A DNA stretch of 37,639 nt, taken from NCBI GenBank assembly GCA_003551905.1, contig PUNT01000038.1, positions 1 to 37,639 on the forward strand, written 5' to 3'. This DNA comes from Halanaerobiales bacterium. Lineage in GTDB: Bacteria > Bacillota > Halanaerobiia > B1SED10-174. Below are positions 845 through 23,725 of this stretch, piece after piece. Position 1 is the first letter of the stretch, and each line of letters begins with the position of its first letter. The notes under the pieces are model-generated. The model saw nothing but the letters and a program-made list of their open reading frames with translations, was not told the DNA's origin and ran no database searches. The position numbers were made by a program, and so were the translations under genes.

Positions 845-2062
845 ATGCAAAAAAGCAATGAAGAGGTAAGATCAAAAAAGGGAGTTCTGGAGATCTTTAC
901 CCTGGGCTCTTTCAGTGTAAAGGTGGGTAACAGGCTCATATCAGAAGACCGGAGCAAAAAGATGTGGAAGCTTTTCAAGTATCTCATCACTCAGAAAAAT
1001 GTTGTCAGTCATCCGGAGGCAATTTTGGAGACACTCTGGCCTGATCAAAGGGTAAAAAACCCCCAGAACACATTGAAGAATCATATTTACCGCCTGCGCA
1101 ATATTCTGGAGCAGGAAAGTGGCGATATTCTGGATGGTGATGATTATTTTCTGGCCAGAGGCGGTTCCTATGTTTTCAACTGGAACAGCAATTACTGGCT
1201 GGATGCAGAGGAATTTGAGAATTTAAGCCAGGAGGGGAAAAATATATTTCCTGAAGATCCAGTTCAAGCCAGGGAGAAGTACAGGGCTGCCCTGGCTCTT
1301 TATCAAGGAGATTATTTGTCTGAACTTCCCTATGAAGACTGGCTGTTACCTGTGCGTAAATTTTATCGAGACCTTTATCATAAAACCATTCTGGAACTGG
1401 GTATTGTTCTGAAAGAAGAGAAGGATTTTGCTGGTGTAGAAGAGCTCCTGGAGGAAGTTTTACAGTATGAGGTATTTGAAGAAGACCTTCATGCTCTTTT
1501 CATAGAAGCTCTCATTGAGCAGAAAAAGAATGCCAGGGCTAAAGCTCATTATGATTATGTTATGAATCTTTTTCTGCAGGAACTGGGTGTAAGGCCCGGG
1601 CCTGAACTCAGTAGTATATTTGCAAACATTGAAAAAAAAATCTTTCCTGTGGAAGATCTGGGCATTATCCAGGAAAGTTTAGGTATAAGAAAGGAGGCTG
1701 AAGGCTCTTATTACTGTGATCCTGACTTTTTTCAGCGGCTGTGCCGATTGGAGGAAAGGCGGGTTAAACGCAGCCGGGAAACCATTTTTCTCATCTCCCT
1801 GTCACTGGTTCAGGGGGATGGGCTAACTCCTGAAAAGCCCACCCTGGAAGCAGGGGCAGAGCTCTTGAGAAGTATTCTGAGAAAAACCCTCCGGCGCGGT
1901 GATGTTTTTTGCCGCTGGAGTGATGCCCAGTTCCTGGTGCTCCTTTTAGGAATTGGAGAAGAAAATGTTAGCACCATTGTAGAAAGAATTGAAGATAGAT
2001 TTTTTGCAGAGAGCACATTTGGAGATTTATTCTTGCAGGCTACTCACCGGTTGCTGTCTTGA
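845..2062 (+). CDS. SARP/BTAD-type transcriptional regulator with a degenerate GGDEF-like C-terminal domain
   Basis: The protein has 405 residues. Residues about 15-110 form an OmpR/SARP-type winged helix (LEIFTLGSFSVKVG; RLRNILEQ), and residues about 120-265 form a bacterial transcriptional activation domain of TPR-like helices ending in QELGVRPGPEL. Residues about 290-400 resemble a GGDEF domain: LRRGDVFCRWSDAQF aligns with the RxxDxxxRxGGDEF signature. The GGDEF position reads SDAQF (359-363), so diguanylate cyclase activity is not expected, but R350 and D353 keep the RxxD pattern used as the c-di-GMP inhibitory site in true cyclases. The gene starts 22 bp after the ThiF-like gene and ends at a bidirectional terminator facing the surface-protein locus. 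Regulation of that locus by this protein is an inference. Confidence 0.75.
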   Translation: MQKSNEEVRSKKGVLEIFTLGSFSVKVGNRLISEDRSKKMWKLFKYLITQKNVVSHPEAILETLWPDQRVKNPQNTLKNHIYRLRNILEQESGDILDGDDYFLARGGSYVFNWNSNYWLDAEEFENLSQEGKNIFPEDPVQAREKYRAALALYQGDYLSELPYEDWLLPVRKFYRDLYHKTILELGIVLKEEKDFAGVEELLEEVLQYEVFEEDLHALFIEALIEQKKNARAKAHYDYVMNLFLQELGVRPGPELSSIFANIEKKIFPVEDLGIIQESLGIRKEAEGSYYCDPDFFQRLCRLEERRVKRSRETIFLISLSLVQGDGLTPEKPTLEAGAELLRSILRKTLRRGDVFCRWSDAQFLVLLLGIGEENVSTIVERIEDRFFAESTFGDLFLQATHRLLS

Positions 2063-2091
2063 TCGCTTGATTTAAGAGATCTTTAATATAT

Positions 2092-2120
2092 AGAAAGGCC
2101 CCGGTAACCGGGGCCTTTCT
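2092..2120. terminator. Near-perfect palindrome, bidirectional terminator between convergent genes
   Basis: A 14-bp inverted repeat (AGAAAGGCCCCGGT / ACCGGGGCCTTTCT) around a single A separates the regulator gene on the + strand from the secreted-protein gene on the - strand. Each arm ends in a short T-rich stretch rather than a long U tract, so it can serve both directions but may be less efficient than a classic terminator. Confidence 0.75.
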
Positions 2121-2203
2121 GTATATTCTGGACCTTCCACAAATTTTTGGACTGAGAGGAGAAAACAGCCTCTTGGCAATATTTCCTGCTATAGATCAGT
2201 TAA

Positions 2204-2644
2204 TTACAGGGATGATAGAAGAAAGCTCATGTCCAGATGGTAAGTTCCTGCATTTAGAGCTGAGGAAGCTGGTATGTAAGCTTGGATTATTATGGTGTGT
2301 TTACCGGCTTTACCCCTGATGAGAACGGTCTCATCATAATCTCTTTCCCCTGGAAAACTTATTTGGGGCTGCAATCCGCCGGGCAGTCTTTGAGCCTGGA
2401 CTTCAAGCTGCCAGGGAGCATTGCTGGTTATTTCTAGGACATATGCTTCAGCAATTTGCAAGGTGTCTCCCTGATAGTTAAAGACAGCATTGCTTCTCAA
2501 AAGTTTAGATGACTGCATTACAGGTATGGTTGCTGTTACATCTAATGTATTCTGGGCCAGGTTGTTAGCTGAAGTGGGGAGGATGGTTATTGTTACGGTG
2601 ATCAGCAGGAGAAGAATCAAGGTGATTCTGCAATTCCGTCTCAC
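2204..2644 (-). CDS. Secreted beta-rich protein under a c-di-GMP-I riboswitch
   Basis: The 146-residue product starts with a clear signal peptide (RRNCRITLILLLLITVTIT, cleavage near SAN) and continues as a beta-rich domain without further membrane segments. Its beginning (NTLDVTATIPVM) and end (NAGTYHLDMSFLLSSL) follow the pattern of the + strand secreted proteins at 3176, 4165 and 4892, whose last strand is also a GTY/GDY turn followed by alternating hydrophobic residues. This is how the last strand of spore-coat-U or Csu-type pilins looks, but overall identity is low, so the family is not certain. The GTG start is preceded by GAGAGGAG. Upstream on the same strand lie a G9 tract, a terminator and a class I c-di-GMP aptamer, so expression is probably set by c-di-GMP. 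It is transcribed opposite to the rest of the locus. Confidence 0.75.
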   Translation of the reverse strand: MRRNCRITLILLLLITVTITILPTSANNLAQNTLDVTATIPVMQSSKLLRSNAVFNYQGDTLQIAEAYVLEITSNAPWQLEVQAQRLPGGLQPQISFPGERDYDETVLIRGKAGKHTIIIQAYIPASSALNAGTYHLDMSFLLSSL

Positions 2645-2671
2645 AGCTGTTCACTCCTCTCAGATTGGATT

Positions 2672-2680
2672 CCCCCCCCC
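2672..2680 (-). repeat. Homopolymeric tract of nine G in the 5' leader (C9 on + strand)
   Basis: Nine consecutive C on the + strand, read as G9 in the mRNA leader, lie between the riboswitch terminator and the Shine-Dalgarno site of the secreted-protein gene ending at 2644. Such tracts are prone to slipped-strand changes in length. Confidence 0.8.
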
Positions 2681-2685
2681 TTCTG

Positions 2686-2723
2686 AAAAAAGTTAACGGC
2701 CCTTCCCGATATGGGTGGACCGT
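2686..2723 (-). terminator. Riboswitch expression-platform terminator
   Basis: On the - strand ACGGTCC (2723-2717) pairs with GGGCCGT (2702-2696) with one G-U pair, followed by TAAC and six T (2691-2686). It lies directly downstream of the c-di-GMP-I aptamer. Its loop and 3' arm overlap CTTCCCGATA (2702-2711, + strand), which is the exact complement of a segment at 2817-2826 on the other side of the aptamer, so aptamer closure and terminator formation should compete. Confidence 0.65.
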
Positions 2724-2737
2724 AAAGAAATAAAATA

Positions 2738-2826
2738 CTTCTTTCGGTAGCCCTGCCACCATAGCTATTGCCTTAGGTCGTGGCTTTGCGTCCCTGCTTT
2801 TCAACAGGTTTGCCTTTATCGGGAAG
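2738..2826 (-). ncRNA. Cyclic di-GMP-I (GEMM-I) riboswitch aptamer
   Basis: Read on the - strand, the segment carries the GEMM hallmarks in order: AAAGGCAAACC, a P1b hairpin closed by a GAAA tetraloop (CCTGTTGAAAAGCAGG), GGACGCAAAGCC, then CCTAAGG, and GGTGGCAGGGCTACCG. The match to the class I consensus is close throughout. A perfect 10-bp complement (TATCGGGAAG at 2817-2826 and CTTCCCGATA at 2702-2711 on the + strand) flanks the aptamer. It controls the secreted-protein gene at 2204-2644. If ligand binding stabilises this closing helix, the overlapping terminator is disrupted and the switch is ON with c-di-GMP; the direction is an inference. Confidence 0.92.
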
Positions 2827-2850
2827 TACAGTTATTCTATTGTTAAATAA

Positions 2851-2879
2851 ATAATATCATATTTTATCAGTAAATGCAA
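2851..2879 (-). promoter_or_regulatory. SigA-type promoter for the GEMM riboswitch transcript
   Basis: On the - strand TTGCAT (2879-2874) and TATTAT (2856-2851) are separated by 17 bp, putting the start point near 2844, just upstream of the aptamer. Between this promoter and the + strand promoter at 3116 (about 2880-3115) the sequence is AT-rich and I see no gene or recognisable element. Confidence 0.6.
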
Positions 2880-3115
2880 CCCTAAAAACAACAAAATCAC
2901 TGATTTTTTTAATTTTTTGACCGAAATGTGACCAGCATTAGACCTCTGTAAGACCAGTAAATGCTAAAAATAGACAGAGTTTGGGAGAAAAGAACAGAGA
3001 AATGTCCTGATGGAGAGTTAAATATAATTAGATGCAATAGACAGTAGTAAACGTTTTTTGATTCTCTAAAATTTTTATCATATTATTTGTAGGTCTCCAG
3101 AGGGGTCAATTTTTC

Positions 3116-3144
3116 TTGTATTCCTGATATTGAGAATATATAGT
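3116..3144 (+). promoter_or_regulatory. SigA-type promoter for the + strand secreted-protein genes
   Basis: TTGTAT (3116-3121) and TATAGT (3139-3144) are separated by 17 bp. The predicted start point near 3151 leaves only about 25 nt of leader before the first gene, with no room for a riboswitch on this transcript's first cistron. Confidence 0.5.
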
Positions 3145-3175
3145 GATTTTTTGAAATTATCTTGTATGCGAGTTG

Positions 3176-4042
3176 ATGGTAATGCTGAAGCTTAAATCTT
3201 TGAAGAATATATGCTGTATTCTAAGTTTTTTGTTCATCAGTCTTTTAATTTTTCCTCAAATTGCCCGGGCTCAGACAGGACAGCCACTTTTTTTAAGAAA
3301 ACCAGGCGGGCTGCAATTCACCATTGAATCCACCAGTAATGAAGTTGAGTTATCCTGGCATCAACAAACAGAAGAAGAGGATAAGGTTGATATATATTAT
3401 ATGGCTGAAGGTGACTTCACCGCTGAGAATGGCAACAGCATTCCAAAAGAGAAAATGATAGCTCATACACCTTACCAAGGGGGATTGTCCCTGGATGATT
3501 GGGTTTTATTCATGAGTGAGGAGGAAGAAGAAGGAGTGACTGTTCTCCTGGAATTGGATGACAGTGTTTGGGGTAGTTATCCGCCAGGAACTTATGAGGG
3601 CAAATTGATTTCCAATGTAGGGGGACCCGGGCAGAGAATCAATATCACCATAGAAATGGAATGGGATATGGTCCTTATAGTTTTTCCCCAGGAGCTGCAA
3701 ATAGATGCTGATAGCGGGCCGGGTTTTTACCCTGCCCGGCAGAATGTGACAATACAGGTTATTGCCAACAATGAAGACTGGGTTCTCATGATATCTGCTG
3801 GAGAGTTCGTACTGGCAGGTAACCCAGAAGAGACCCCTCCTCTCAGGAAAGAAGATCTATTCCTGAGCTTTGCAGAAGAAGGCCCCTACAAGAGTCTGGA
3901 ACAACCTGTGGAGATTTTTGGCAGTGAACACGGTTCTGAAGTTGAACTTGAGCTTTATTTCTGGTCCCAAACAAACTGGGGTTACAGAGCAGGTACCTAT
4001 GAGGGTTGTATCTATATTGATCTTTTAGAGGACAGCTTATAG
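3176..4042 (+). CDS. Secreted protein with two related beta-sandwich-like halves
   Basis: About 288 residues. A signal peptide spans roughly residues 1-33 (KNICCILSFLFISLLIF, cleavage near ARAQ). The mature part falls into two halves that end alike: PPGTYEGKLISNV near the middle and RAGTYEGCIYIDLL at the C-terminus, and each half has an N-terminal strand pattern (FTIESTSNEVELSW; VTIQVIANNEDWVLMI). This suggests an internal duplication of one beta-sandwich domain of the type seen in the neighbouring secreted proteins. The start is uncertain: TTG 3173, ATG 3176 and ATG 3182 are in frame and none has a strong SD, so translation may be weak. The gene is followed by the first class II c-di-GMP aptamer. 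It is probably a surface or matrix protein; no catalytic motif is visible. Confidence 0.7.
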   Translation: MVMLKLKSLKNICCILSFLFISLLIFPQIARAQTGQPLFLRKPGGLQFTIESTSNEVELSWHQQTEEEDKVDIYYMAEGDFTAENGNSIPKEKMIAHTPYQGGLSLDDWVLFMSEEEEEGVTVLLELDDSVWGSYPPGTYEGKLISNVGGPGQRINITIEMEWDMVLIVFPQELQIDADSGPGFYPARQNVTIQVIANNEDWVLMISAGEFVLAGNPEETPPLRKEDLFLSFAEEGPYKSLEQPVEIFGSEHGSEVELELYFWSQTNWGYRAGTYEGCIYIDLLEDSL

Positions 4043-4049
4043 CAATAGA

Positions 4050-4140
4050 CATTTCCTCATTGGAGACGATGATCTGCTGACTTTTAACTGGTCACCAATG
4101 AGTTGGCAGTGAGTCAGGGTGAAACCGACCGGTAGGAATG
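4050..4140 (+). ncRNA. Cyclic di-GMP-II riboswitch, copy 1, with SD-sequestering platform
   Basis: From memory of the Clostridium acetobutylicum class II aptamer, the core elements match in order: GGAGACGATGAT (reference GGAAACAAUGAU), TTTTAACTGGTCACC (reference UUUAAAUUGGGCAC), and GGTGAAACCGACC (reference GUGCAACCGACC). CTGACT (4076-4081 region) can pair with AGTCAG for the pseudoknot, and CATTTCCT closes with AGGAATG. TCCTCATTGG (4054-4063) is also complementary, with one G-U pair, to CCAATGGGGA at 4145-4154, which contains the Shine-Dalgarno site of the next gene. The two pairings exclude each other, so ligand binding should expose the SD: a translational ON switch. Confidence 0.8.
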
Positions 4141-4164
4141 TGAACCAATGGGGAGGTTTACAGA

Positions 4165-4668
4165 ATGAAGCAACTACTTATATTTTTTTTGATGTTTGCT
4201 CTGTTATTAGGAATAACCTACAGGGTAGAATCCATTAATAGCGAAGAATTATTGCTTTACATAGATATATATCCTTATGCGGAAATCGAGGTAATAGATA
4301 ATATTTTCATGGATGTTGATTTTGCTGCTGGATTTACTGTTGAGAGAAAAGCGCAGATTGACTACAGGGCTAATTGTAATGTGCAAATAATGGTGGAATC
4401 CCAGGGTTTTGATAATGCCCTGGACCAGATGGTAACCTACCGGCTTTCCAGGGATGGGCAGGACTGGGAAAATCCGGATGCTAGTTTGAAGCCCGGTCAA
4501 TCATTACCGGGAGCCCTGCACTTTTATTACGAAGATGGCCCTAAAGGAGAATTCTTGCTGGCAGCATTTCTTATAGCAGATGATGTGGGAGGGGAAAGCC
4601 CCTGGTTCTTAGTCGAAGCAGATGAATATCAGGACACTATTACCCTGACCATATCTTCTCTAGAATAA
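4165..4668 (+). CDS. Small secreted beta-rich protein, riboswitch-controlled paralogue 1
   Basis: The 167-residue product begins with a signal peptide (KQLLIFFLMFALLLGI) and otherwise lacks membrane segments. The pattern LYIDIYPYAEIEV, a central IDYRANCNVQIMVESQGFD and the C-terminal strand YQDTITLTISSLE are shared with the protein encoded at 4892-5443 (YAANFDMNITAESVGFD; YTDEITLTIEAQD), so the two are paralogues. The closing strand pattern resembles spore-coat-U/Csu-type or similar pilin subunits, but no family can be claimed firmly. GGGGAGG at 4150-4156 lies 8 nt before the ATG and is part of the segment that can be masked by the class II c-di-GMP riboswitch. The product is acidic. It is a candidate structural subunit of a surface fibre or matrix. 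Confidence 0.75.
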   Translation: MKQLLIFFLMFALLLGITYRVESINSEELLLYIDIYPYAEIEVIDNIFMDVDFAAGFTVERKAQIDYRANCNVQIMVESQGFDNALDQMVTYRLSRDGQDWENPDASLKPGQSLPGALHFYYEDGPKGEFLLAAFLIADDVGGESPWFLVEADEYQDTITLTISSLE

Positions 4669-4773
4669 AAAAATGTCTGATCCTGAAGATTGTTCGGAGG
4701 GAGGTAATAAGAAACAGATAAATACTTTAATCCGTAATTAAGGAAAACTAACATAGGTTATTAAAATTTTTCC

Positions 4774-4860
4774 TCCTTCATTGGAGGCCAGGAACTGCCA
4801 TCCTCTAACTGGTCACCAACAGGGTGGCAGGGAGCCAGTGGTGAAACCGACCATGAAGGA
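4774..4860 (+). ncRNA. Cyclic di-GMP-II riboswitch, copy 2, with SD-sequestering platform
   Basis: This second copy shares AACTGGTCACCAA and GTGAAACCGACC with copy 1 and with the class II consensus. TCCTTCAT (4774-4781) closes with ATGAAGGA (4853-4860), and CTGCCA can pair with TGGCAG inside the aptamer for the pseudoknot. CCTCCTTCATTGG (4772-4784) is complementary, with one bulged T, to CCAATGAGGAGG at 4871-4882, which is the Shine-Dalgarno site of the gene starting at 4892. The platform is therefore the same as in copy 1 although the sequences differ, which is good evidence for function. Prediction: c-di-GMP turns translation on. The stretch 4669-4770 before it holds no gene that I can recognise. 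Confidence 0.8.
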
Positions 4861-4891
4861 AAGTTAAAAACCAATGAGGAGGTTAACTGAA

Positions 4892-5443
4892 ATGAAAAAA
4901 TTAGGTGTTATAGTTCTTACTTTGTTAATAGTAGCTGGTTTGGCTTTGGTTGTTGCTTCTGATGAAAATAATGAAAGCTATGCTTCTGATACTCTGAATG
5001 TAATTATCGATATTCCAAAACATGCTATTCTGGTTTTTACTCAAGACAACCTGCAAATAACCCTGGATACTGATGACTTTCCCGAAGGCATTGAAGAGGG
5101 TTTTGATGATATTGAGTCTGACTCAGTGCCGGTCAATTATGCAGCCAATTTCGACATGAATATTACTGCTGAGTCGGTAGGGTTTGATGGAGGTTCAGAG
5201 CACATATTAGATGATATGGTAGTTTATCAGTATTGTAAGGACGGAGATTTTGATGAGGACCTTGATGGTTCTTCTTTTAATGCCAGTACTGCTCCTGCTG
5301 AGCCAATATACTCTCCTGAGCGAGGAGGAGGCACTTTTTACTTGAGGGCATTAATAAGTTCAGCCAACGAAGATGCTTGGCATGCAGTTGCCGCCGGAGA
5401 TTACACAGATGAAATTACTCTAACCATAGAAGCTCAAGATTAG
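4892..5443 (+). CDS. Small secreted acidic beta-rich protein, riboswitch-controlled paralogue 2
   Basis: I place the start at ATG 4892, 9 nt after AGGAGG (4877-4882), rather than at the in-frame ATG 4874 that lies within the SD region. The 183-residue protein has a signal peptide (KKLGVIVLTLLIVAGLALV) and a very acidic mature part rich in D and E. It is related to the protein at 4165-4668: same central motif (NYAANFDMNITAESVGFD) and same C-terminal strand (AGDYTDEITLTIEAQD). The strand LNVIIDIPKHAIL near the mature N-terminus parallels LDVTATIPVM of the - strand gene at 2204. The SD is controlled by the second class II c-di-GMP riboswitch. Candidate structural subunit; no enzymatic motif is seen. 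Confidence 0.75.
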   Translation: MKKLGVIVLTLLIVAGLALVVASDENNESYASDTLNVIIDIPKHAILVFTQDNLQITLDTDDFPEGIEEGFDDIESDSVPVNYAANFDMNITAESVGFDGGSEHILDDMVVYQYCKDGDFDEDLDGSSFNASTAPAEPIYSPERGGGTFYLRALISSANEDAWHAVAAGDYTDEITLTIEAQD

Positions 5444-5484
5444 AATTTCTTTTGTGTAAATTATTTTTTAAGAAAGTTAATGGT

Positions 5485-5564
5485 GGTAAGATACAGAGGA
5501 TTTATTCCTCTTACCTGTCTACTGAGTTTAATGCAGGGAGAGTTCTGGTAAAGAGTTCTCCCTG
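5485..5564 (+). other. Two hairpins in the leader of the chaperone-like gene
   Basis: GGTAAG (5485-5490) pairs with CTTACC (5510-5515) around a GAGG/CCTC inner stem, and CAGGGAGA (5534-5541) pairs with TCTCCCTG (5557-5564). Neither is followed by a T tract, so these are not ordinary terminators. I cannot match them to a known riboswitch. They may process or stabilise the mRNA between the subunit genes and the assembly genes. Confidence 0.4.
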
Positions 5565-5611
5565 TAATGCAATTCTGGAAAGACTGCTGTTTTAATGGAG
5601 AAGGTGGTTGG

Positions 5612-7123
5612 ATGGCAAAGAGATTTCTGTTATATTCCCTGTTATTACTGGCAATTCTTCTGACATATCCCCAGGAATGCTATGCTCTTGGGGTTCGTCC
5701 CCTGGTTATTGACCTGGATCTGGAACCGGGTGATAGAGCTACCTTTGAGCTGGAGCTTACCCCTGGAGAACAAGGTCGGACAGTGAAACTGGGTTTATTT
5801 GAACCAAGACAGCTCCTTACCGGTGGTTTGGAATACCGGCAGGCAACTCCCCAAGAGTATTACCCAATTGGCTGGCTGGACCTGCCGGAAGAGGTTACAG
5901 TACCGCCTGGGGAGAATGTTACAGTGGAGTGCCAGGTAAGGGTTCCCTATGATGCCTTCGGTTCCAACACTGTGATCATCATGGTTGAGCCCGGGGTTGA
6001 AGATGCTGAAACCGGTATTGTTTTCCGGGTCAGGTATGCTGTGCGAGTTAATATCAATGTTCCAAGACCGGGCTTAAGAGCCCAGATAGATATTGAGGAT
6101 TTTTTCCTGGAATCAGATGAAGAAGGCAGGCCTCAGGTGGTAGCCCATGTGAAAAATCCTTCCCCCCTCCACTACAATACCACTGCTGAGGTTACCATAA
6201 GAGATGAGAACCGGCGGCTGGTGGAAAGGGTGGCAATGAATTCCCAGGCTGGCTGGCAGGCTGGCCGGGGAACAAGCAGAATTTATGCTGGTGCAGAGGT
6301 GGTCTTGTTGGGGGAAGTAACTGAATATCTGGCGCCCGGGGAATATGATCTCCGTCTCTTTATAAATTTTGCTGATGGCAGGCAGTCCATTAGTTCTAGC
6401 AGAGTTAGTGTGGAGGAAGGGCAGTTTGTGCAGCCCCGGGAATATTTACGTTTTTCACCGCAAGTCGTTGAGGATAGTTTGCGGCCAGGAGCTTCTTTAA
6501 CTCAAGCCTTGCAGCTGGAGAACCGAAGTGGAGATCCTGTATTTGTGGAGATTAGAACCCAAAAAATTGAGCAGGAATATCCCCATTGTGTTTTTGATTC
6601 TTTTGGTATTGAATTCCGTGGAGGGCGTGATTTTGAGCTGGCACCTAACCGATCAACAAGGACAGTTTTAATCAGCCGTTCTCCCCGGAATATAGAGGTG
6701 GGGGGCTATTATGGCTACCTCAATATAGATGTTTTCTCTAAGGAAAGGGAGCTTCTGGAAACCCATCAGATTCCCTTCAGCATTACTGTGGGTGAAGTGG
6801 AGGAGTATGAAGGGGCAATCAGGAGTGTTGAGTACGATTATTTTACAGAAGAATATCTCTTTAGTGTTTATTTGCTGAATAAAAGTAAAGTCCACATGGT
6901 ACCCACTGGAGTGCTTTATCTCATAGATGAGGACGGAGATGTGGTAAGGTCAATGAGACTGGATATGCAGGAAGGGCAGTTGAACATACTTCCCCAGAAG
7001 GGAGCTATACTCACAGGAACTGCCCGAGATTTAGAACCGGGTGATTATACAGCGAGAATTGTAATAAATTATGAGAATCAGGAAGTAACATCTGCAGAAA
7101 TACCTTTAAATATTAAGCCATGA
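5612..7123 (+). CDS. Exported, internally duplicated protein resembling a periplasmic pilus chaperone
   Basis: I prefer ATG 5612 (SD GGAGAAGG, then a clean signal peptide ending CYA at residue 24) over the in-frame ATG 5567, which overlaps the right arm of a hairpin. The 503-residue protein consists of two repeats. Residues about 26-150 and 278-395 each resemble the N-terminal Ig-like domain of PapD-type chaperones (VRPLVIDLDLEPGD; LRFSPQVVEDSLRPGA), with a Pro-Gly-rich turn and terminal strand (FRVRYAVRVNINVP; HQIPFSITVGEV). Residues about 157-268 and 401-500 are a second repeated domain, each ending in PGEYDLRLFINF or PGDYTARIVINY. Next comes a secretin gene, with no usher. A role in folding or guiding the secreted subunits is inferred. 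Distant alternatives are other Ig-like exported proteins such as DUF916-type scaffolds. Confidence 0.65.
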   Translation: MAKRFLLYSLLLLAILLTYPQECYALGVRPLVIDLDLEPGDRATFELELTPGEQGRTVKLGLFEPRQLLTGGLEYRQATPQEYYPIGWLDLPEEVTVPPGENVTVECQVRVPYDAFGSNTVIIMVEPGVEDAETGIVFRVRYAVRVNINVPRPGLRAQIDIEDFFLESDEEGRPQVVAHVKNPSPLHYNTTAEVTIRDENRRLVERVAMNSQAGWQAGRGTSRIYAGAEVVLLGEVTEYLAPGEYDLRLFINFADGRQSISSSRVSVEEGQFVQPREYLRFSPQVVEDSLRPGASLTQALQLENRSGDPVFVEIRTQKIEQEYPHCVFDSFGIEFRGGRDFELAPNRSTRTVLISRSPRNIEVGGYYGYLNIDVFSKERELLETHQIPFSITVGEVEEYEGAIRSVEYDYFTEEYLFSVYLLNKSKVHMVPTGVLYLIDEDGDVVRSMRLDMQEGQLNILPQKGAILTGTARDLEPGDYTARIVINYENQEVTSAEIPLNIKP

Positions 7124-7136
7124 AAGGGGCATAAGG

Positions 7137-8303
7137 ATGCGAATTACTGGTATAGGGTTGTTGGTTTTCCTGCTTTTAGTGAGTTTGCCTGTTATGGCTG
7201 AGGAAGAAGAGCTCCTGGTTTCTACCCTGTTTTTTGAAACGGATATCAGAGAAGCCCTGGATGAGCTGGCCATGCAGACCGGTGTCAACATTATTTTTGA
7301 TGATTCTGTCCGGGGAACGGTGACTCTGGATCTGGAGGATGTGCCCCTGGAAAGGGCCCTGCGCATGGTACTCATCAGTGGCGGATATTCCTTCCGGAAA
7401 ATTGAAGACTTTTACCTGGTAGGCTTGCCGGATCCTCGCAGTCCAGCTTTTCAATCACTTTCTGAGACAGAGACTATAAAGCTGGAGTATTTAAGCACCC
7501 AGCATGCCATGGAACTAACCCCATCTTTCTATGAAGATTTTCTCAAAGTGAGCCATGATCAGAACATGATTACCATTACTGCGCCTTTAGAGATTATAGA
7601 AAGTTTCAAGGAACATCTGCAGAAAATAGATGTTCGCCCTCGTCAGCTGCAGATAAAGGTTCTGGCAACAGAGATATCAAAAGGAGCCCTGCAGGAATTA
7701 GGGACCAGTGTTCTGGAGTATTCTTTTGAGGCCGGGCAGGAGGTTAAGGATGATTGGCTTACCAGTTTCGGCATGGAGCTGGGAAAGATTACCCTGGAAA
7801 CCGATGTTTTTGGAAAACTCCTGACCGATTTACATATGCTGGAGGGGGAGGAAAGGGCAGAAATAACTGCAGATCCCTGGGTAGTGGTAGCTGACCGGCA
7901 GCAGGTAGATCTCTTCGTTGGTGAAGAACAGATTATTATCCTTGAACCTGAAGGAGCCCCGGCCCGTATTGAACGGGTGAATGTGGGGGTGCTTCTAAAC
8001 ATAGTGCCGGAAATATTAAATGACGAGGAAATACGCCTTGCAATATCGCCGGAGATCAGTCATCTCAGGGGTGAAGAGCCCAAGGGGCTGAGCATCAGAA
8101 GAAGCGAACTTTCTACCACTGTTTATGCCAGAGATGGACAAACCCTGGTTCTGAGCGGCATTACTATTGAGGAAAAACTGGAGCAAGCCAGGGGTTTTCC
8201 TGTTCTCAGGAATATTCCAATTCTGCGCTGGATATTTGGCCTGGAGGAAGAAACGGTGGTAAAAAGAGAACTCCTTCTTTTCATTACCCCGGAAATTATC
8301 TGA
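7137..8303 (+). CDS. Short secretin (GspD/PilQ-type outer-membrane channel)
   Basis: The 388-residue protein has a signal peptide (ITGIGLLVFLLLVSLPVMA), an STN-like domain at about residues 30-80 (IREALDELAMQTGVNIIFDD, then VTLDLEDVPLERAL), a short N1-like domain at about 105-155, and a secretin core to the end. Core hallmarks are visible: VGVLLNIVPEI, VYARDGQTLVLSGI, the lip motif PVLRNIPILRWIFG, and a final strand ELLLFITPEII. Secretins form large ring channels in outer membranes in type II/III secretion, type IV pili and competence. This one is shorter than GspD or PilQ, and no ATPase, pseudopilin or inner-membrane component is present in the window. The ATG sits 13 bp after the chaperone-like gene, so they are co-transcribed. 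Confidence 0.85.
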   Translation: MRITGIGLLVFLLLVSLPVMAEEEELLVSTLFFETDIREALDELAMQTGVNIIFDDSVRGTVTLDLEDVPLERALRMVLISGGYSFRKIEDFYLVGLPDPRSPAFQSLSETETIKLEYLSTQHAMELTPSFYEDFLKVSHDQNMITITAPLEIIESFKEHLQKIDVRPRQLQIKVLATEISKGALQELGTSVLEYSFEAGQEVKDDWLTSFGMELGKITLETDVFGKLLTDLHMLEGEERAEITADPWVVVADRQQVDLFVGEEQIIILEPEGAPARIERVNVGVLLNIVPEILNDEEIRLAISPEISHLRGEEPKGLSIRRSELSTTVYARDGQTLVLSGITIEEKLEQARGFPVLRNIPILRWIFGLEEETVVKRELLLFITPEII

Positions 8304-8313
8304 GGAGGAAATT

Positions 8314-9594
8314 ATGAAACAAAAAGCGGTATTCTTCCTTATTACTGGAGCTTTACTCATGGCAGCGTTGTTTCCGGGACAGGTTGAAGGTGCTCTTCAT
8401 CTAACTCCCCTGCCTCATGTAGAAGGTGAAGAGGTTGAGCCTGCACATCTAGATTCCCTGCTCATTGCCTATAGCCTTAAAATAGTAGAACTCACAGATT
8501 ATTACCACAACATCTTTGGCCTGGAAAGGTTAGAAGTTAGCTATCCAGATCATCCCGGCAGCCTGGCCATTTTATATGACACAGAACTGGGAGAGCTCAT
8601 GGCTAGGGTTCCTTATGCCAGCCTTGTTATGAGAGTTCAAGAAAAGCTGGATAGGGAGAGTTACCTGTCATCTCCCTGGATAGTTTGTGCTCCTGGACAG
8701 GTTGCAAAAATGGGTGTTATTCATGAAGATATTGGCTCGGATAAGCCCGGGCCAGGGTTGGAAGTATTATTTGATCCTGAAAGAATAGATGAGGATAGAG
8801 GTAGTGTGCTTACCCATATTGAGCTTACTGACCATGGGACCGCAGCAAAACTAAGCACTCAGCTGTGGTTAACTGAACAACCTCAACCACTGGCAGTGGT
8901 AACAGTTAAAGATAAGGATTATCAAAGAGGTTTTACCCGGGAGAGGAGAGTTAAAGAGCGGTACTTTGCAGTTTATGGTGCTGCAAAATTTTTGCATCAG
9001 CTCCCTCAGGATAAAACATTTGCCATTGCCGGTCTGGATAACATGGCAGAACTTTTCTGGCCGGAGCCGAAAAGGGAACTGGATAGCATGTTCATTATAA
9101 CACTCCCCCTCGCTGGCCAGGAGGATTATCTGGATCTTTTTCTATCAGCCTGGGTGACAGAAGAAAATCTTTTAAGTGTTGTTGTGCAGAATATCAATCC
9201 TGGTTTTGAAATTGGATTTGAACAGAGAATAATGTCCGGTGATCTACGTTTTGGTTTGCGTTTAATTCACTTTGGTCCGGATGATCCTTTTATAGGATTT
9301 GGTTTCAGTGATGACACAGAGCCTATAAATAATGTTCATCTGTATGCTGGACTTTATCCCCTTATGTATTCTTGTAAAAGAGGGAAAATGTCTGCACCAT
9401 ACTGGTGGGCTGGCAGTCTTTTAAAGCATGAGGGTTTTATGCTGGAATTTAGTTATTCTTCAGCTGGAGATTATCAGAACTTCATGGGGCGTACTGGTTA
9501 TGAACTGGCTGATAATTTCCTGCCAGTGCTGGAATATCGTACCAATCTTGAGGGGAGATGGAGCGTTAATATGGGTTTCAAGAAGGAATTTTAG
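8314..9594 (+). CDS. Exported protein with a beta-barrel-like C-terminal half ending in Phe
   Basis: The 426-residue protein starts 10 bp after the secretin stop, with AGGAGG 5 nt upstream of the ATG, and has a signal peptide (KQKAVFFLITGALLMAALF, cleavage near VEGA). Residues about 30-260 look globular. From about residue 265 on there are repeated amphipathic strands (LFLSAWVT; LLSVVVQNI; FEIGFEQRI; LRFGLRLIHFG; VHLYAGLY; FMLEFSYSS), and the last strand RWSVNMGFKKEF alternates hydrophobic residues and ends in Phe. That terminal signature is the one recognised by the BAM machinery in outer-membrane barrels. I do not recognise a family. It could be the outer-membrane partner or pilotin-like component of the secretin. 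The barrel assignment is an inference from pattern alone. Confidence 0.6.
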   Translation: MKQKAVFFLITGALLMAALFPGQVEGALHLTPLPHVEGEEVEPAHLDSLLIAYSLKIVELTDYYHNIFGLERLEVSYPDHPGSLAILYDTELGELMARVPYASLVMRVQEKLDRESYLSSPWIVCAPGQVAKMGVIHEDIGSDKPGPGLEVLFDPERIDEDRGSVLTHIELTDHGTAAKLSTQLWLTEQPQPLAVVTVKDKDYQRGFTRERRVKERYFAVYGAAKFLHQLPQDKTFAIAGLDNMAELFWPEPKRELDSMFIITLPLAGQEDYLDLFLSAWVTEENLLSVVVQNINPGFEIGFEQRIMSGDLRFGLRLIHFGPDDPFIGFGFSDDTEPINNVHLYAGLYPLMYSCKRGKMSAPYWWAGSLLKHEGFMLEFSYSSAGDYQNFMGRTGYELADNFLPVLEYRTNLEGRWSVNMGFKKEF

Positions 9595-17600: not shown

Positions 17601-17635
17601 ATTGATCTACCATGATAAAGAGAGGTGGAGATTTT

Positions 17636-19159
17636 TTGCTCAGAATTGATGGGAAAAACCTTAGCCTTGAAGATGTAGTTATGGTGGCAAAGGATAGGAA
17701 GAAAGTTGCCCTGGAAAAACCCGCTGCAGAAAAGATTGCCCAAAACCGGTTTTACCTGGAAGAACAGATGAAAAATGGTGAAACTATCTATGGAATCAAT
17801 ACAGGCTTTGGCCATCTCAGCCGGGTTACTATTTCTCCGTGTGAGCTGGAAACACTGCAGCAGAAACTGGTCTATAGCCATTCCGTAGGATACGGGGAGG
17901 ATCTTGATGAAGAAACAGTAAGGGCAGTTATGCTGCTCCGGGCCAATGCCCTGGCCCAGGGGTTTTCCGGTGTGCGGATTCAGGTTGTGGAAAAATTGCT
18001 GGATTTTTTAAACCATGGCATACATCCCCGTGTTCCTTCCCGGGGTTCAGTTGGAGCCAGTGGAGATTTGGTTCCCCTGGCCCATGTGGCTCTGGCTTTA
18101 ACCGGTAATGGCCAGGTTTATTATCAAGGAAAATTGGTTGATACAAAAGAAGCACTGAAAAAGGAAAATTTAATGCCTCTCCAGCTCATGGCCAAGGAAG
18201 GATTAGCATTAGTTAATGGTACCCAGGTAATGACAGCTCTGGGGCTTATAGCTGTCCATGAAGGCCTGAAGATTTTACGCCAGGCTGATTGCATTGCAGC
18301 CCTATCCATGGAAGCCTTAAGGGGGCTAAGAGACCCTTTTCATCCATTGATTCAAAAGGTTCGTCCCCATCCTGGACAGAAAAAGGTTGCAGAGAATATT
18401 CTTACCCTCATGGAGGGTAGTGAGAACCTGGAGGGGAACTGCAATGATAAGGTGCAGGATGGTTATTCGCTGCGCTGTATTCCCCAGATTCATGGAGCTT
18501 CCCGGGATGTTTTGGAATATGTTCTGGATCTCTTGATCAGGGAAGCCAATTCTGCTACAGATAATCCCCTCATTTTCCACGAAGAAGACAGGATTATCTC
18601 TGGGGGAAATTTTCATGGTCAGCCCCTGGCCCTGGCACTGGATTACCTGGGGATGGCCATGTCCGAGATTGGCAATGTTAGTGAAAGAAGGTTGGAACGG
18701 TTGATCAATCCTGCCCTCAGCGGTGGACTGCCTCCTTTTCTGGTAAATAAGAGTGGCTTGAACTCCGGTTACATGGTACTCCAGTACACTGCAGCATCTC
18801 TGGTTTCAGAGAATAAGGTGCTGGCTGGACCGGCCAGTATAGATTCCATACCTACCTCAGCCAGTCAGGAGGATCATGTCAGCATGGGTTCAGTGTCAGC
18901 ATTGAAACTTAAAAATATCAACAGCAACCTCCTGGGCATTCTTGCTGGAGAAGCTCTCTGTGCAGTGCAGGGAATAGATATGGCTGGACTGGAGCGAATG
19001 GGTCGGGGAACCCGATTGCTGCATTCTTTTTTGAGGGAGAAGGTGCCTTTTCTAGAGGAGGATCGGACTTTGTATGGGGAACTGGAACTGGTATCCTCAT
19101 TGCTAAAAGAAGGAGCTCTTTTGAGGGTTTTACAGGATGGAGAATGTTTTCTGCTTTAA
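17636..19159 (+). CDS. hutH: Histidine ammonia-lyase
   Basis: The product of about 507 residues deaminates L-histidine to urocanate. The segment GSVGASGDLVPLAHVAL contains the Ala-Ser-Gly triad that cyclises to the MIO cofactor; YSHSVGYG has the Ser-His typical of histidine rather than aromatic lyases; IPTSASQEDHVSMG and FHGQPLALALD are further family motifs. I favour TTG 17636, which follows AGAGGTGGAG at 5 nt and gives the family N-terminus LRIDGKNLSLEDV; an in-frame ATG at 17612 has no SD and lies 12 nt from the terminator. The genes for the rest of the pathway follow. I see no promoter between the ftsH terminator and this start, so expression may rely on regulated read-through. Confidence 0.94.
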   Translation: MLRIDGKNLSLEDVVMVAKDRKKVALEKPAAEKIAQNRFYLEEQMKNGETIYGINTGFGHLSRVTISPCELETLQQKLVYSHSVGYGEDLDEETVRAVMLLRANALAQGFSGVRIQVVEKLLDFLNHGIHPRVPSRGSVGASGDLVPLAHVALALTGNGQVYYQGKLVDTKEALKKENLMPLQLMAKEGLALVNGTQVMTALGLIAVHEGLKILRQADCIAALSMEALRGLRDPFHPLIQKVRPHPGQKKVAENILTLMEGSENLEGNCNDKVQDGYSLRCIPQIHGASRDVLEYVLDLLIREANSATDNPLIFHEEDRIISGGNFHGQPLALALDYLGMAMSEIGNVSERRLERLINPALSGGLPPFLVNKSGLNSGYMVLQYTAASLVSENKVLAGPASIDSIPTSASQEDHVSMGSVSALKLKNINSNLLGILAGEALCAVQGIDMAGLERMGRGTRLLHSFLREKVPFLEEDRTLYGELELVSSLLKEGALLRVLQDGECFLL

Positions 19160-19273
19160 ATGGTTTTTTGAAGGAAAAGGAGGTTGTTATAGCGAAACTT
19201 CCATGTGTAGGTTTTCTGTTTGATGCTTTGGTTTCAATATTTTTTATGATTTTATATTCTGGAGGGGGTTTCT

Positions 19274-20923
19274 TTGAAACTGTATAAAGCCCCAAGGGGC
19301 AAAGAGATTTCCTGCAAGGGGTGGCAGCAGGAGGCAGCCATGCGCATGCTTCTCAACAACCTGGACCCGGAAGTAGCTGAGAAACCTGAAGAACTGGTAG
19401 TTTACGGAGGACGGGGAAAAGCAGCCAGGGATTTTGCTGCCCTGGAAGCCATCATAAAGGCATTGAAAGAATTGGCTGACGATGAAACCTTATTAATACA
19501 GTCCGGTAAGCCGGTGGGAATTTTTCGGACCCATGAAATGGCTCCCCGGGTGCTTTTAGCCAACTCCCTTCTGGTGCCGGCCTGGGCTACCTGGGAGCAC
19601 TTCTGGGAACTGGAGAAAAAAGGCCTTATCATGTACGGCCAGATGACAGCTGGCAGCTGGATCTATATAGGCACTCAGGGTATTCTCCAGGGAACATATG
19701 AAACTTTTGCCCAAGCTGCTACCCAGCATTTTGGCGGTTCCCTCAAGGGGAAAATTGTTCTCAGTGCAGGACTTGGAGGCATGGGAGGGGCCCAACCCCT
19801 GGCCATTACCATGAATGGAGGGGTTGCCCTTGTAGTGGAGGTTGACAGGGAGAGAATAAAAAGGCGCCTGGAAACCGGTTATTGTGATTTGATGTCAGAG
19901 AATCTGGAGGAAGCAATTAAGCTGGCTGGCGATGCTGCAGCAAAAGGAGAGCCTCTTTCCATTGGTCTTCAGGATAATGCTGCCCGGGTTTATCCGGAAC
20001 TCTTGAAAAGAAATTTCATTCCGCATATTGTTACTGATCAAACTTCTGCCCATGATGTTCTAAACGGTTATATACCTCTGGGATATAATGTGGAGGAGGC
20101 TGCTGAATTGAGGCAGAGATCTCCAGAAGAATACCTGGAGAAAGCACTGGATTCTATTAAAGATCATGTAGAAGCTATGCTGAGTATGCAAAATCAGGGA
20201 GCCTTAGTATTTGATTATGGCAATAATATCAGGGAGCAGGCTAAGAACAGAGGAGTGGAGAATGCCTTTGATTTTCCTGGATTTGTTCCTGCTTTCATTC
20301 GCCCCTTATTTTGCGAAGGAAAGGGGCCTTTCCGCTGGGTGGCCCTTTCAGGAGATGCAGAAGACATAGAGAAAATTGATGACCGAATACTGGAAATATT
20401 CCCTGAGGATGAACGTTTAGTCCGCTGGATAAAGAACGCCCGGGAAAAGGTGAGTTTTCAAGGCTTACCGTCCCGTATCTGCTGGTTGGGGTATGGGGAC
20501 AGGGCCCGACTTGGCCTGGAGATGAATCGCATGGTGGCCAGTGGTGAGCTTAAGGCTCCCATAGTTATTGGTCGAGACCATCTGGATTCTGGCTCAGTGG
20601 CTTCCCCCAATCGAGAAACAGAAAGTATGAAGGATGGTAGCGATGCTATTGCTGACTGGCCCATACTCAATGCTCTCCTGAACACAGCAGCTGGGGCTTC
20701 CTGGGTTAGTGTTCACCATGGTGGAGGGGTAGGCATTGGTTACTCTCTCCATGCTGGCATGGTGGTGGTTGCTGATGGCACGGCCCTGGCAGAGAAAAAG
20801 CTGGAGAGGGTTTTAACCAGCGACCCGGGTACTGGAATTATGAGGCATGCTGATGCCGGCTATGATAAAGCCTTAGAGACAGCCAGGAAGAAAGGAATAA
20901 AAATACCCATGGAGGAGGGATAA
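19274..20923 (+). CDS. hutU: Urocanate hydratase (urocanase)
   Basis: The 549-residue protein converts urocanate to 4-imidazolone-5-propionate using tightly bound NAD+ as electrophile. Visible landmarks are the N-terminal [37 protein letters not shown], the Rossmann glycine motif [12 protein letters not shown], and [18 protein letters not shown] with the active-site cysteine region. Length is normal. Translation starts at TTG 19274, 5 nt after GGAGGGGG. The 114-bp gap after hutH (19160-19273) contains no gene, and I see no terminator there. It is followed 2 bp later by ftcD. Confidence 0.97.
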
Positions 20924-20925
20924 GT

Positions 20926-21825
20926 ATGCGTAAAGTCCTGGAATGTGTACCAAACATTAGTGAGGGTCGCCGCAAAGAAGTGGTTGAAGAAGTAATTCAA
21001 GCTGTTCGTTCAGTAGAGGGAATTCGTCTCCTGGACTATTCTTCTGATGCCAGTCACAACCGCTCGGTGATTACCTTCGTTGGCGAAGTTGAGCCGGTCA
21101 AGGAAGCAGCGTTCAAACTGGTGGAGAAGGCTGGTCAACTTATAGATATGGAACAGCATAAAGGGGAACATCCCCGGATGGGAGCTACTGACGTTCTTCC
21201 TTTTATTCCCATCAGCAACATGGAGATGGATGAGTGTATAGAAATAGCCCGGGAGATGGGCAAGAGGATAGGGGAAGAGCTGAATATTCCTGTATACCTT
21301 TACGGGGAAGCAGCTCAGATGCCAGAAAGGAAAAACCTGTCCCGAATAAGAAAAGGGCAGTATGAAAAACTAAAAGAGCTCATCAGTACAGAGAGGCTTC
21401 CTGACTTTGGCCCTCAGGAGATGCCTGGAACTGGAGCTACTGCAGTTGGAGCCCGGATGCCCCTGGTTGCCTACAATATCAATCTGGACACTTCGCAAAA
21501 GGAGATAGCCGACAAAATAGCCCGGGTAATTAGGGCCAGTGGTGGTGGCTTCAAAAATGTTAAAGCCATGGGTGTTTTTCTGGAAGACCGGGGGCAGGCC
21601 CAGGTGTCCATGAATCTTGAAAATTATGAGAAGACTCCCATATTTAGAGTATTTGAAGTAGTGAAGAGGGAAGCACAGAGGTATGGTGTAAATATTGTGG
21701 GCAGTGAAATTGTTGGACTGGTGCCACAAAAAGCCCTGGTTGATGCCGCAGATTTTTACCTGCAGCTGGAAGATTTTCAGGATGATCAGATACTGGAAAC
21801 CCGGGTATTCATGGGGGAGGATTAG
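20926..21825 (+). CDS. ftcD: Glutamate formimidoyltransferase
   Basis: The 299-residue protein matches the transferase half of animal FTCD: ECVPNISEGRR at the N-terminus, YSSDASHNRSVITFVG, and the catalytic KGEHPRMGATDVLPFIP. It moves the formimino group of N-formimino-glutamate to tetrahydrofolate, giving glutamate and 5-formimino-THF. The presence of this enzyme, with no hutG or hutF seen, defines the folate branch of histidine degradation. The cyclodeaminase half is a separate gene here (fchA, two genes on). It begins 2 bp after hutU and its TAG touches the hutI ATG. Confidence 0.95.
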   Translation: MRKVLECVPNISEGRRKEVVEEVIQAVRSVEGIRLLDYSSDASHNRSVITFVGEVEPVKEAAFKLVEKAGQLIDMEQHKGEHPRMGATDVLPFIPISNMEMDECIEIAREMGKRIGEELNIPVYLYGEAAQMPERKNLSRIRKGQYEKLKELISTERLPDFGPQEMPGTGATAVGARMPLVAYNINLDTSQKEIADKIARVIRASGGGFKNVKAMGVFLEDRGQAQVSMNLENYEKTPIFRVFEVVKREAQRYGVNIVGSEIVGLVPQKALVDAADFYLQLEDFQDDQILETRVFMGED

Positions 21826-23109
21826 ATGCCTGGGAATGTAGATCTTCTCCTCACAGCTGGCAATGTGATTACAGCTGGCGGGTTCAAAAAAGAAGCAGCC
21901 CGGGGAGAAGCCATGAGAAAACTGGAAATTATTGAGGATGGAGCTGTAGCTGTGAGGGGGGAAAAAATCATAGAGGTGGGCCCCCGGGAGAAAGTGTTGG
22001 AAAAGATTGCAAAAGAAACAGCTCATACCTTCATCCATGCCCCGGGCATGACTCTGACCCCTGGCTTTGTGGACCCTCATACTCACTCCGTTTTCGGTGG
22101 TTTTAGGGAGGATGAATTTGCCCTGCGGATTTCCGGTATCCCCTATATGGAAATACTAAAAGAAGGTGGCGGTATACTGGAAACTGTCCGGGCTACAAGG
22201 AAAACCTCAAAAGATGAGCTTCTGGAAAAGAGCCGCAAGGTCTTGGACCGGATACTTTTAAATGGTACCACAACAGTTGAAATTAAGAGCGGGTATGGTT
22301 TGGACCTGGAAAATGAAGTGAAGATGCTAGAGGTCATAGATCAATTGCAGAAGGAGCATCCTGTGGATATAATTCCCACCTTCCTGGGTGCCCATGCCTT
22401 GCCTGAAGAATATGCTGGCCGGAGTGATGATTTTATTGATTACATGAAAGATGAAGTTCTGCCATATGTTGCTGAAAGAAAACTGGCCCGGTTTTGCGAT
22501 GTTTTTTGCGAAGAAGGAGTTTTCTCCGTAGAGCAGTCCCGGCGCCTCTTGAGAAAAGCTAAAGAGCTGGGACTTGAAATCAGGTTTCATGCTGATGAGA
22601 TGGTTTCCCTGGGTGGAGCTGAACTGGCTGCAGAACTGGGGGCTGCATCTGCTGATCATCTCCTGGAGATTTCCCTGGCAGGGATGGAAAAGATGGCGAC
22701 AGCTGATGTAACAGCAACTCTGCTTCCTGCCACACCCTTTACCCTCATGAAAGACAAATATGCTCCGGCCCGGGAAATGATAGATCGGCATGTGCCTCTG
22801 GCCCTGGCTTCTGATTTCAATCCGGGAAGCTGTCCCACCCATTCCATCCCCTTGATTATGACCCTGGCCTGTCTGAAGATGAAGATGACTCCTGAAGAAG
22901 CTTTCATAGCTGTAACCATTAATGCTGCTCATAGCCTGGGTCTGGGAGAAGATGTGGGAAGTATTGAACCGGGCAAGCAAGCAGACCTGGTTCTCTTTGA
23001 TGTACCCAATCACCGTTTTATTCCCTATTATTACGGGATAAATCTGGTGGATACTGTGGTTAAAAAGGGTAAGATAATTGTGGAAAAAGGTTGTTTCAAG
23101 GAGGGATAG
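21826..23109 (+). CDS. hutI: Imidazolonepropionase
   Basis: The 427-residue amidohydrolase opens the ring of imidazolonepropionate to N-formimino-glutamate, the substrate of the preceding ftcD product. Metal-ligand motifs are DPHTHSVFGG (about residues 83-92), RFHADE, SADHLLE and the late aspartate in LASDFNPGS. The amidohydrolase-type beta-sandwich halves are at both ends (NVDLLLTAGNVIT; GSIEPGKQADLVLFD). The ATG follows the ftcD stop directly and its SD lies in the ftcD 3' end (GGGGGAGG), so translation is coupled. Confidence 0.95.
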   Translation: MPGNVDLLLTAGNVITAGGFKKEAARGEAMRKLEIIEDGAVAVRGEKIIEVGPREKVLEKIAKETAHTFIHAPGMTLTPGFVDPHTHSVFGGFREDEFALRISGIPYMEILKEGGGILETVRATRKTSKDELLEKSRKVLDRILLNGTTTVEIKSGYGLDLENEVKMLEVIDQLQKEHPVDIIPTFLGAHALPEEYAGRSDDFIDYMKDEVLPYVAERKLARFCDVFCEEGVFSVEQSRRLLRKAKELGLEIRFHADEMVSLGGAELAAELGAASADHLLEISLAGMEKMATADVTATLLPATPFTLMKDKYAPAREMIDRHVPLALASDFNPGSCPTHSIPLIMTLACLKMKMTPEEAFIAVTINAAHSLGLGEDVGSIEPGKQADLVLFDVPNHRFIPYYYGINLVDTVVKKGKIIVEKGCFKEG

Positions 23110-23110
23110 G

Positions 23111-23725
23111 ATGCTGGATAAAAATATGAAGGAATTTTTGGCTGATCTGGCAGCACCTAAACCAACCCCTGGCGGTGGGAGTGTAGCAGCTCTGGCCGGG
23201 GCCCTGGCTGGAGCCCTGACAGGCATGGTAAGTGGGTTATCCCAGAAAAAAGCCGGGGAATCACAAAAAAAGTTCAGGGAGGTGGAAGAAAAAGCCTGTG
23301 TTCTCAGGGAAGAACTCTGTGAGCTCATAGAAAAAGATTCTCAAGCTTTCAAAGCTGTCATGGAGGCTTTCCGTCTTCCCAAGGAAACCGAGGAAGAAAA
23401 AGAACAGAGAAAGAAGAGACTTCAGGAAGTATTCAAAGGAGCTGCCAGTGTTCCCATGGAGGTTATGGAAAAGTGTATTGAGGTTATGGAGCTGGCCTCT
23501 ACTGGAGTTAAGGAGGGCAATCCTAACTGCATCACAGATGGAGGTGTTGCGGTGCTCCTGGCCCATGCTGGTTTGCAGGGAGCAGCCATGAATGTGCGCA
23601 TAAACCTTTCAAGCATCAAAGATGATAGATTTTGTGATGATGCCCGGAAGAAGAGCGCTGAATTGCTGGCGAGAGGAAATTCAATAAAACAAGAAGTGGA
23701 GGCAATACTGGAGGAGAATATTTAA
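23111..23725 (+). CDS. fchA: Formimidoyl-THF cyclodeaminase
   Basis: I start at ATG 23111, 7 nt after AAGGAGGG, and not at the in-frame GTG 23078 inside hutI. The 204-residue, largely helical protein has the family motif PTPGGGSVAALAGALAGALTGMV and the later NPNCITDGGVAVLLAHAGLQGA. It converts 5-formimino-THF to 5,10-methenyl-THF and ammonia. In animals this is the C-terminal half of FTCD; here the two halves are separate, with hutI between them. The product feeds the C1-folate pool used by the next gene, fhs. Confidence 0.93.
   Translation: MLDKNMKEFLADLAAPKPTPGGGSVAALAGALAGALTGMVSGLSQKKAGESQKKFREVEEKACVLREELCELIEKDSQAFKAVMEAFRLPKETEEEKEQRKKRLQEVFKGAASVPMEVMEKCIEVMELASTGVKEGNPNCITDGGVAVLLAHAGLQGAAMNVRINLSSIKDDRFCDDARKKSAELLARGNSIKQEVEAILEENI

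Follow-up and report, generated by a model that had tools for sequence, protein, structure and literature searches.

A conserved secretin cassette of outer-membrane-bearing Firmicutes as a candidate motor-independent system for surface-subunit assembly or export

In this work, we have analysed a gene cassette in a 37,639-nucleotide stretch of DNA from a Halanaerobiales bacterium (assembly GCA_003551905.1, contig PUNT01000038.1, positions 1 to 37,639 of the forward strand), hereafter the window. The cassette codes for a regulator, four exported subunit-like proteins (pA to pD), an exported protein of repeated Ig-like domains (CHAP), a short secretin (SEC) and a protein ending in a predicted barrel (BAR), with three cyclic di-GMP (c-di-GMP) riboswitches placed before subunit genes. 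A first-pass annotation, made from the letters alone, had suggested that chaperone-guided subunits leave the cell here through a secretin, without the usual motor genes, and that c-di-GMP switches the locus on. The parts are as follows.

145-822: ThiF gene, one flank of the locus; divIC, S1 and spoIIE form the other flank
845-2062, plus strand: BTAD (SARP-like) regulator with a degenerate GGDEF remnant, assigned from Pfam and as a conserved neighbour
2204-2644, minus strand: pA, subunit-like exported protein of 146 aa, beta-rich with a signal-peptide-like start, C-terminal AGTYHLDMSFLL
2696-2723, minus strand: predicted intrinsic terminator (from folding) between the class I aptamer and pA
2743-2824, minus strand: c-di-GMP-I riboswitch aptamer upstream of pA (Rfam RF01051, 75.2 bits)
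3173-4042, plus strand: pB, larger subunit-like exported protein of 289 aa, assigned from family recurrence
4053-4138, plus strand: c-di-GMP-II-GAG riboswitch between pB and pC (RF03169, 44.6 bits)
4165-4668, plus strand: pC, subunit of 167 aa, profile relative of pD, C-terminal motif EYQDTITLTISSLE
4774-4860, plus strand: c-di-GMP-II riboswitch upstream of the pD-CHAP-SEC-BAR run (RF01786, 63.8 bits)
4892-5443 (open reading frame listed from 4874), plus strand: pD, subunit of 183 aa from its likely start, C-terminal motif GDYTDEITLTIEAQD
5567-7123 (likely start about 5612), plus strand: CHAP, exported, with a WxLIP-like module of two Ig-like domains present twice
7137-8303, plus strand: SEC, short secretin (PF00263, 9e-34; PF07660; PF21305)
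8314-9594, plus strand: BAR, secretin-like domain (about residues 50-227) and 12-stranded barrel (259-425)

The pA gene and its riboswitch lie on the minus strand, and the regulator, pB, pC, pD, CHAP, SEC and BAR on the plus strand. Since a Shine-Dalgarno (SD) sequence, GAGGAGG, stands at 4876-4882, pD most likely starts at 4892 and not at 4874. The four exported beta-rich proteins and the secretin of the first-pass annotation are present in the window, and its three c-di-GMP riboswitches all score above the Rfam cut-offs, as classes I, II-GAG and II.

Recurrence of the cassette

SEC and CHAP were searched in 61 genomes of relatives, a sample of the class; relatives of SEC with 35% identity or more were found in 15 of them, and CHAP was present in 15/15. 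Gene maps were drawn for 27 loci and for 38 loci from a species collection, whose scan with a single 10-residue pattern is insufficient for calling the system limited to Firmicutes. Besides the window, CHAP, SEC, BAR and at least one subunit gene stand together in 31 non-redundant loci from Halanaerobiia (Halanaerobium, Halanaerobacter, Halothermothrix MAGs, that is, metagenome-assembled genomes), Limnochordia and other Firmicutes MAGs; the conserved set of CHAP, SEC, BAR and subunits is secure. The first-pass annotation had proposed to ask if the same gene set recurs in conserved order; content and tight linkage are kept, whereas order differs between lineages. Incomplete loci run out at contig ends, with the exceptions of L044, L065 (without BAR) and L069 (without SEC). 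L044 holds CHAP, SEC, BAR and the regulator with unlabelled exported neighbours, and is incomplete though not at a contig end. A genome may carry up to four cassettes (G056).

L044 (655-10831) is a second, paralogous cassette of the host assembly (G000), on contig C126, with regulator, BAR, CHAP and a SEC 47% identical to that of the window; its neighbours are an S8 subtilase whose start resembles that of a lipoprotein and two exported, unlabelled proteins (205 and 402 aa).

A CHAP-like protein was detected in 49 genomes of a phylum sample of 300, and a SEC-type secretin was clustered beside CHAP in 17 of the 20 loci retrieved from that sample. CHAP adjoins SEC in distant relatives too (L110-L113, L122-L124, L127-L129), and in the four of these loci that were inspected (L113, L122, L124, L129) a free protein of 233-310 aa, barrel-like as judged from sequence only, takes the place of BAR. 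The distances of CHAP and SEC are correlated (r=0.85, 0/2000 permutations), shared ancestry accounting for part of the correlation. The outer-membrane mark Omp85, which the host also has, as the first-pass annotation had proposed to check, was found in 45/49 genomes with CHAP and in 34/251 without it (p=4e-27). Where CHAP occurs but Omp85 does not, in four genomes, the CHAP matches are weak, and the two loci retrieved from these (L114, L126) have no secretin beside CHAP.

The subunits of L113, L122, L124 and L129 belong to a different family of 230-290 aa, with the motif CNKQ.W...ASVAQWI.W..S.T.WDWR..KPG.Y and no Pfam model.

The proteins of the cassette

CHAP had been described as an exported, duplicated, chaperone-like protein. 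The duplication is real: the halves D1-D2 and D3-D4 are homologous (hhalign, E=1e-15), and the AlphaFold model consists of successive Ig-like beta domains along the entire chain (pLDDT 90). A relation to PapD-type chaperones did not hold by sequence, and CHAP proved to be related to WxLIP instead. The PapD family had come into question because some motifs looked similar on inspection (NPSP, and RP following the final strand of domain one), and was rejected: six E. coli chaperones gave an hhalign E=0.19, and CHAP has no PapD-family Pfam match. PapD and WxLIP match each other weakly (4e-4, probability 35%). A sequence search with CHAP against solved structures gave no match. By structure, most high matches were generic multi-Ig proteins, the specific one being Enterococcus faecium WxLIP, alone or WxL-bound (9i1y, 9i25; TM score 0.55-0.60 by target length). 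WxLIP proteins from two Firmicutes genomes align with both CHAP domains (hhalign 7e-7 over 209 columns), both modules are homologous to WxLIP (7e-7 and 2.6e-5), and Pfam WxLIP_HBD matches some members of the CHAP family (9e-7). Since WxLIP aligns with both domains and the E. coli PapD-type chaperones do not, we consider CHAP a double WxLIP-like protein; a role as chaperone is a functional guess.

SEC carries a secretin domain (PF00263, E=9e-34), STN (PF07660, 1e-7) and N0 (PF21305, 5e-5), in an architecture of N0/STN, one N1-like stretch and the secretin domain, without an S domain. Its nearest known structures are GspD and PilQ, and its scores fall far under the NCBIfam curated cut-offs for PilQ, GspD and SctC. 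The barrel-like end previously ascribed to BAR was corroborated by AlphaFold, which predicts a 12-stranded barrel in residues 259-425 of the window protein (pLDDT about 90). Its fold is closest to the 12-stranded KdgM/NanC porins (TM score 0.67/0.59 by target length), from which BAR differs in that its barrel is fused to a secretin-like domain: residues 50-227 align with the secretin domain when profiles are compared (5e-8; in a second hhalign, to SEC, 1.4e-8). In the short BARs, the window's included, the secretin relation is seen only by profile-profile comparison, and a BAR sequence search against solved structures returned weak PilQ/InvG matches only. The SEC profile matches three long BARs (6e-35, 2e-26 and 1e-15) and neither shuffled BARs nor other cassette proteins, and the BAR of Limnochordia retains an STN domain (L073, L082) that is lost in the window protein. 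To judge from these profiles BAR is secretin-derived, and since it joins a secretin-like part to a barrel of its own, the locus carries two secretin-family proteins.

The subunits have an invariant Asn in mid-protein, the end pattern AGxYxxTITxTVS and ordinary Sec-type signals, no prepilin-type N-terminus or type IV prepilin motif being seen by eye in their alignments. A Pfam search with pA gave no match; pB belongs to a family with 17 members in the loci searched and is a conserved neighbour of BAR or of subunit genes. A first subunit alignment (profile A3) matched CsuE (6fjy), the protein at the tip of the archaic-type Csu pilus, with E=1.6e-4 over the last strands, and in both proteins the match reaches the very C-terminus. 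A missing last strand, supplied to each subunit by its neighbour, would fit such a match, which we take as a lead and not as proof.

WxL proteins were also considered as relatives of the subunits, with which WxL domains have an end pattern in common (AGxYxxTLTWTL / AGxYxxTITxTVS), and were rejected: the hhalign match spans the last 14 residues only, and the WxL domain PF13731 has no match in the CHAP-bearing genomes among the 300 sampled.

No usher stands in the pore's place, as first suspected: PF00577 was found in 0/61 genomes, the E. coli control being positive. The cassettes show no ATPase, platform protein, pseudopilin or prepilin motif, and that no motor gene belongs to the cassette is firm. 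On both the lack of the usual motor genes and the mismatch with a standard type IV pilus or type II secretion locus, the first-pass annotation was right. The T2SSE ATPase occurs in 59/61 of the relatives' genomes; among the matches listed, it lies on other contigs than the cassette or, in the one-contig G022, more than 600 kb away. In the host assembly no T2SSE was found, while 14/14 control genomes were positive.

Contig C26 of the host assembly (L001) codes for a 686-aa PilQ-like secretin with LysM repeats. That no T2SSE was found beside it in the assembly reflects either a gap in the assembly or the loss of the pilus motor. In another group of loci (L055:1-5226, the same as L081; L068:5779-10720; L125:1992-5276), a two-Ig CHAP relative lies beside a barrel-like protein of 856-1096 aa and subunit-like proteins. 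These large proteins were rejected as ushers (no Pfam Usher match, hhalign 0.01-0.5), and those of L055 and L068 contain Cu_amine_oxidN1 and SdrD_B domains; the clusters perhaps represent an unrecognised usher-like pathway with no sequence relation to E. coli ushers.

Control by c-di-GMP

The placing of c-di-GMP riboswitches before subunit genes extends beyond the window: of the riboswitches with a gene behind them in related loci, 21/22 lie directly upstream of a subunit gene, and a class I switch precedes one in L047 and L053 too. In the class II switch at 4774, folding predicts that the SD, which the aptamer's 5' strand masks in the free RNA, is unpaired at 0.06 there versus 0.72 with P1 formed; with shuffled aptamers, equal masking appeared in only 1/60. 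The II-GAG switch at 4053 behaves similarly (0.26 free, 0.71 with P1 formed), whereas the probability of the terminator stem of the class I switch rises from 0 in the free RNA to 0.83-1.0 with P1 formed. The class II and II-GAG switches are therefore predicted to act as translational ON switches for pD and pC, and the class I switch as an OFF switch for pA by termination. Measurements in C. difficile gave the same signs, off for class I and on for class II (PMC6200980). The idea that c-di-GMP turns the locus on would then hold for the genes behind class II switches, and fail for one subunit, pA. The pC and pD switches sit between genes of a single plus-strand run, and therefore can set the yield of individual subunits. 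Since a search of nine loci (L089, L092, L094-L099, L101) found no c-di-GMP switch in any of them, riboswitch control is a common and not a defining part of the cassette.

The adjacent regulator, described as having a GGDEF-like domain, is present as a BTAD protein (BTAD 1.3e-15, Trans_reg_C 1e-8), and the same type adjoins many cassettes. Its GGDEF match (4e-4, residues 343-384) is partial and below the cut-off, and the signature reads WSDAQF, so we regard this domain as degenerate; a role as diguanylate cyclase was rejected because the site is not an intact GG(D/E)EF.

Two further arrangements were observed. In L059 (9525-9703), c-di-GMP-II and c-di-GMP-II-GAG aptamers stand in tandem upstream of one subunit gene, and in L093 (440-1290) a c-di-GMP-I riboswitch is followed by a SAM riboswitch, within or beside the cassette.

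A proposed mechanism and its rivals

How might such a cassette work? We lean towards a dedicated, motor-independent, secretin-based system for the assembly or export of surface subunits in outer-membrane-bearing Firmicutes, and infer its function as follows. pA to pD would enter the periplasm by Sec, where CHAP may bind and hold them. The SEC ring would serve as the outer-membrane pore in the usher's place, without an ATPase, and beta-strand pairing between subunits could drive a fibre or surface complex to grow outwards, with BAR anchoring, gating or completing the pore. c-di-GMP would select the subunits made, class II switches freeing the ribosome sites of pC and pD and class I terminating pA; with ON for pC and pD and OFF for pA, high c-di-GMP would alter the subunit make-up of the surface structure. 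Both the exit of subunits via the secretin and their guidance by CHAP we infer.

Several points weigh against this mechanism. The second, more diverse subunit alignment (A7) reached only 0.02 with CsuE and 0.07 with Caf1, and an apparent relation to E. coli fimbrial subunits (E=6e-5) was due to the signal peptide alone and was gone once this was removed. The missing ATPase of the host assembly is weak evidence, because that assembly is a fragmented MAG, 93.6% complete. Some class II loci (L046, L059) do not show the SD-masking fold. WxLIP is not known to act as a folding chaperone, and since the partner of WxL stays within the surface complex, CHAP could stay there likewise. Finally, the model does not explain by what means subunits would be retained, motor-free, in a pore as wide as that of a secretin.

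The main rival, which we judge unlikely though still to be reckoned with, is a diderm WxL/WxLIP complex, a static surface assembly of CHAP and subunits in which SEC and BAR would be export pore and outer-membrane anchor, no fibre being polymerised. The WxL/WxLIP clusters of monoderm Firmicutes (DUF916/DUF3324) similarly set a homologous Ig-like partner beside small beta-rich surface subunits, and the homology of both CHAP modules to WxLIP, in sequence and fold, argues for this rival, as does the ending common to subunits and WxL domains. In these clusters, too, one WxLIP goes with small and large partners (PMC10599100). Against it, the subunits are not WxL proteins by the searches above, and the several small subunits per locus suggest the building of a polymer. 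The locus further differs from the monoderm clusters in that CHAP has tandem modules and no C-terminal transmembrane anchor, a secretin and a barrel are added, and the hosts are diderm.

Quite improbable, in our judgement, is that SEC serves the type II secretion or type IV pilus machinery of the host as a spare outer ring, with its neighbours as substrates. Both systems have an outer-membrane secretin with N0 and secretin domains, that of SEC is closest to GspD/PilQ, and nearly all relatives possess T2SSE. However, the cassettes are without ATPase, platform protein, pseudopilins and prepilin motif, SEC is short, without an S domain and far under the family cut-offs, the genomes carry separate, longer PilQ-type secretins, and SEC follows CHAP and not T2SSE. 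Least probable of all is a loose surface or matrix locus of unrelated envelope genes clustered through joint c-di-GMP control, to which shuffled gene order and variable subunit number would correspond, but CHAP, SEC and BAR are linked across many families, including in loci with no detected riboswitch.

As for the motor-independent secretin system that we prefer, one of its nearest counterparts is the chaperone-usher pathway (archaic/Csu), which likewise has small beta-rich subunits ending in an AGxYxDTITVTV strand, an Ig-like partner in the periplasm and an outer-membrane pore, and no ATPase. The locus differs in lacking an usher, in having a secretin as pore and a CHAP outside the PapD sequence family, and in the weakness of the CsuE likeness (1.6e-4 or 0.02, by alignment). 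The filamentous phage protein pIV is also a short secretin of similar size (PDB 7ofh). It serves for the export of phage, together with an assembly ATPase in the inner membrane, and the locus has neither. Each protein alone belongs or relates to a known family, and in the open-access literature we found neither a described system with this gene set nor orphan secretins. From chaperone-usher, type IV pilus/type II secretion and WxL systems the locus departs on at least one defining feature each. A more specific proposal, which we put forward tentatively and with slightly less confidence than doubt, is that of a new outer-membrane assembly class in which a secretin and a secretin-derived barrel would stand for the usher, subunits held by a WxLIP-like protein would polymerise motor-free, and c-di-GMP riboswitches of opposite sign would swap subunits.

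The known secretin systems rely on a motor in the inner membrane, and the known motor-free fimbriae on an usher. If the proposal is true, a widespread secretin system without motor or usher would revise what secretins are thought to need, and the WxL complexes of monoderm Firmicutes would be linked with fibre assembly in diderm ones. Through the partner protein shared with the WxL complexes of one-membrane Firmicutes, the two envelopes can be compared directly, and the outer-membrane Firmicutes are the lineages used in the debate on one- versus two-membrane cell evolution (PMC5007114). Halanaerobium saccharolyticum, H. kushneri and Halanaerobacter jeridensis are cultured hosts that carry the system.

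Elsewhere in the window, a histidine utilisation run (hutH, hutU, ftcD-like, hutI and cyclodeaminase-like genes) lies beside ftsH at 17612-25663, and a pan motif RNA at 25583-25663 lies upstream of panB/panC.

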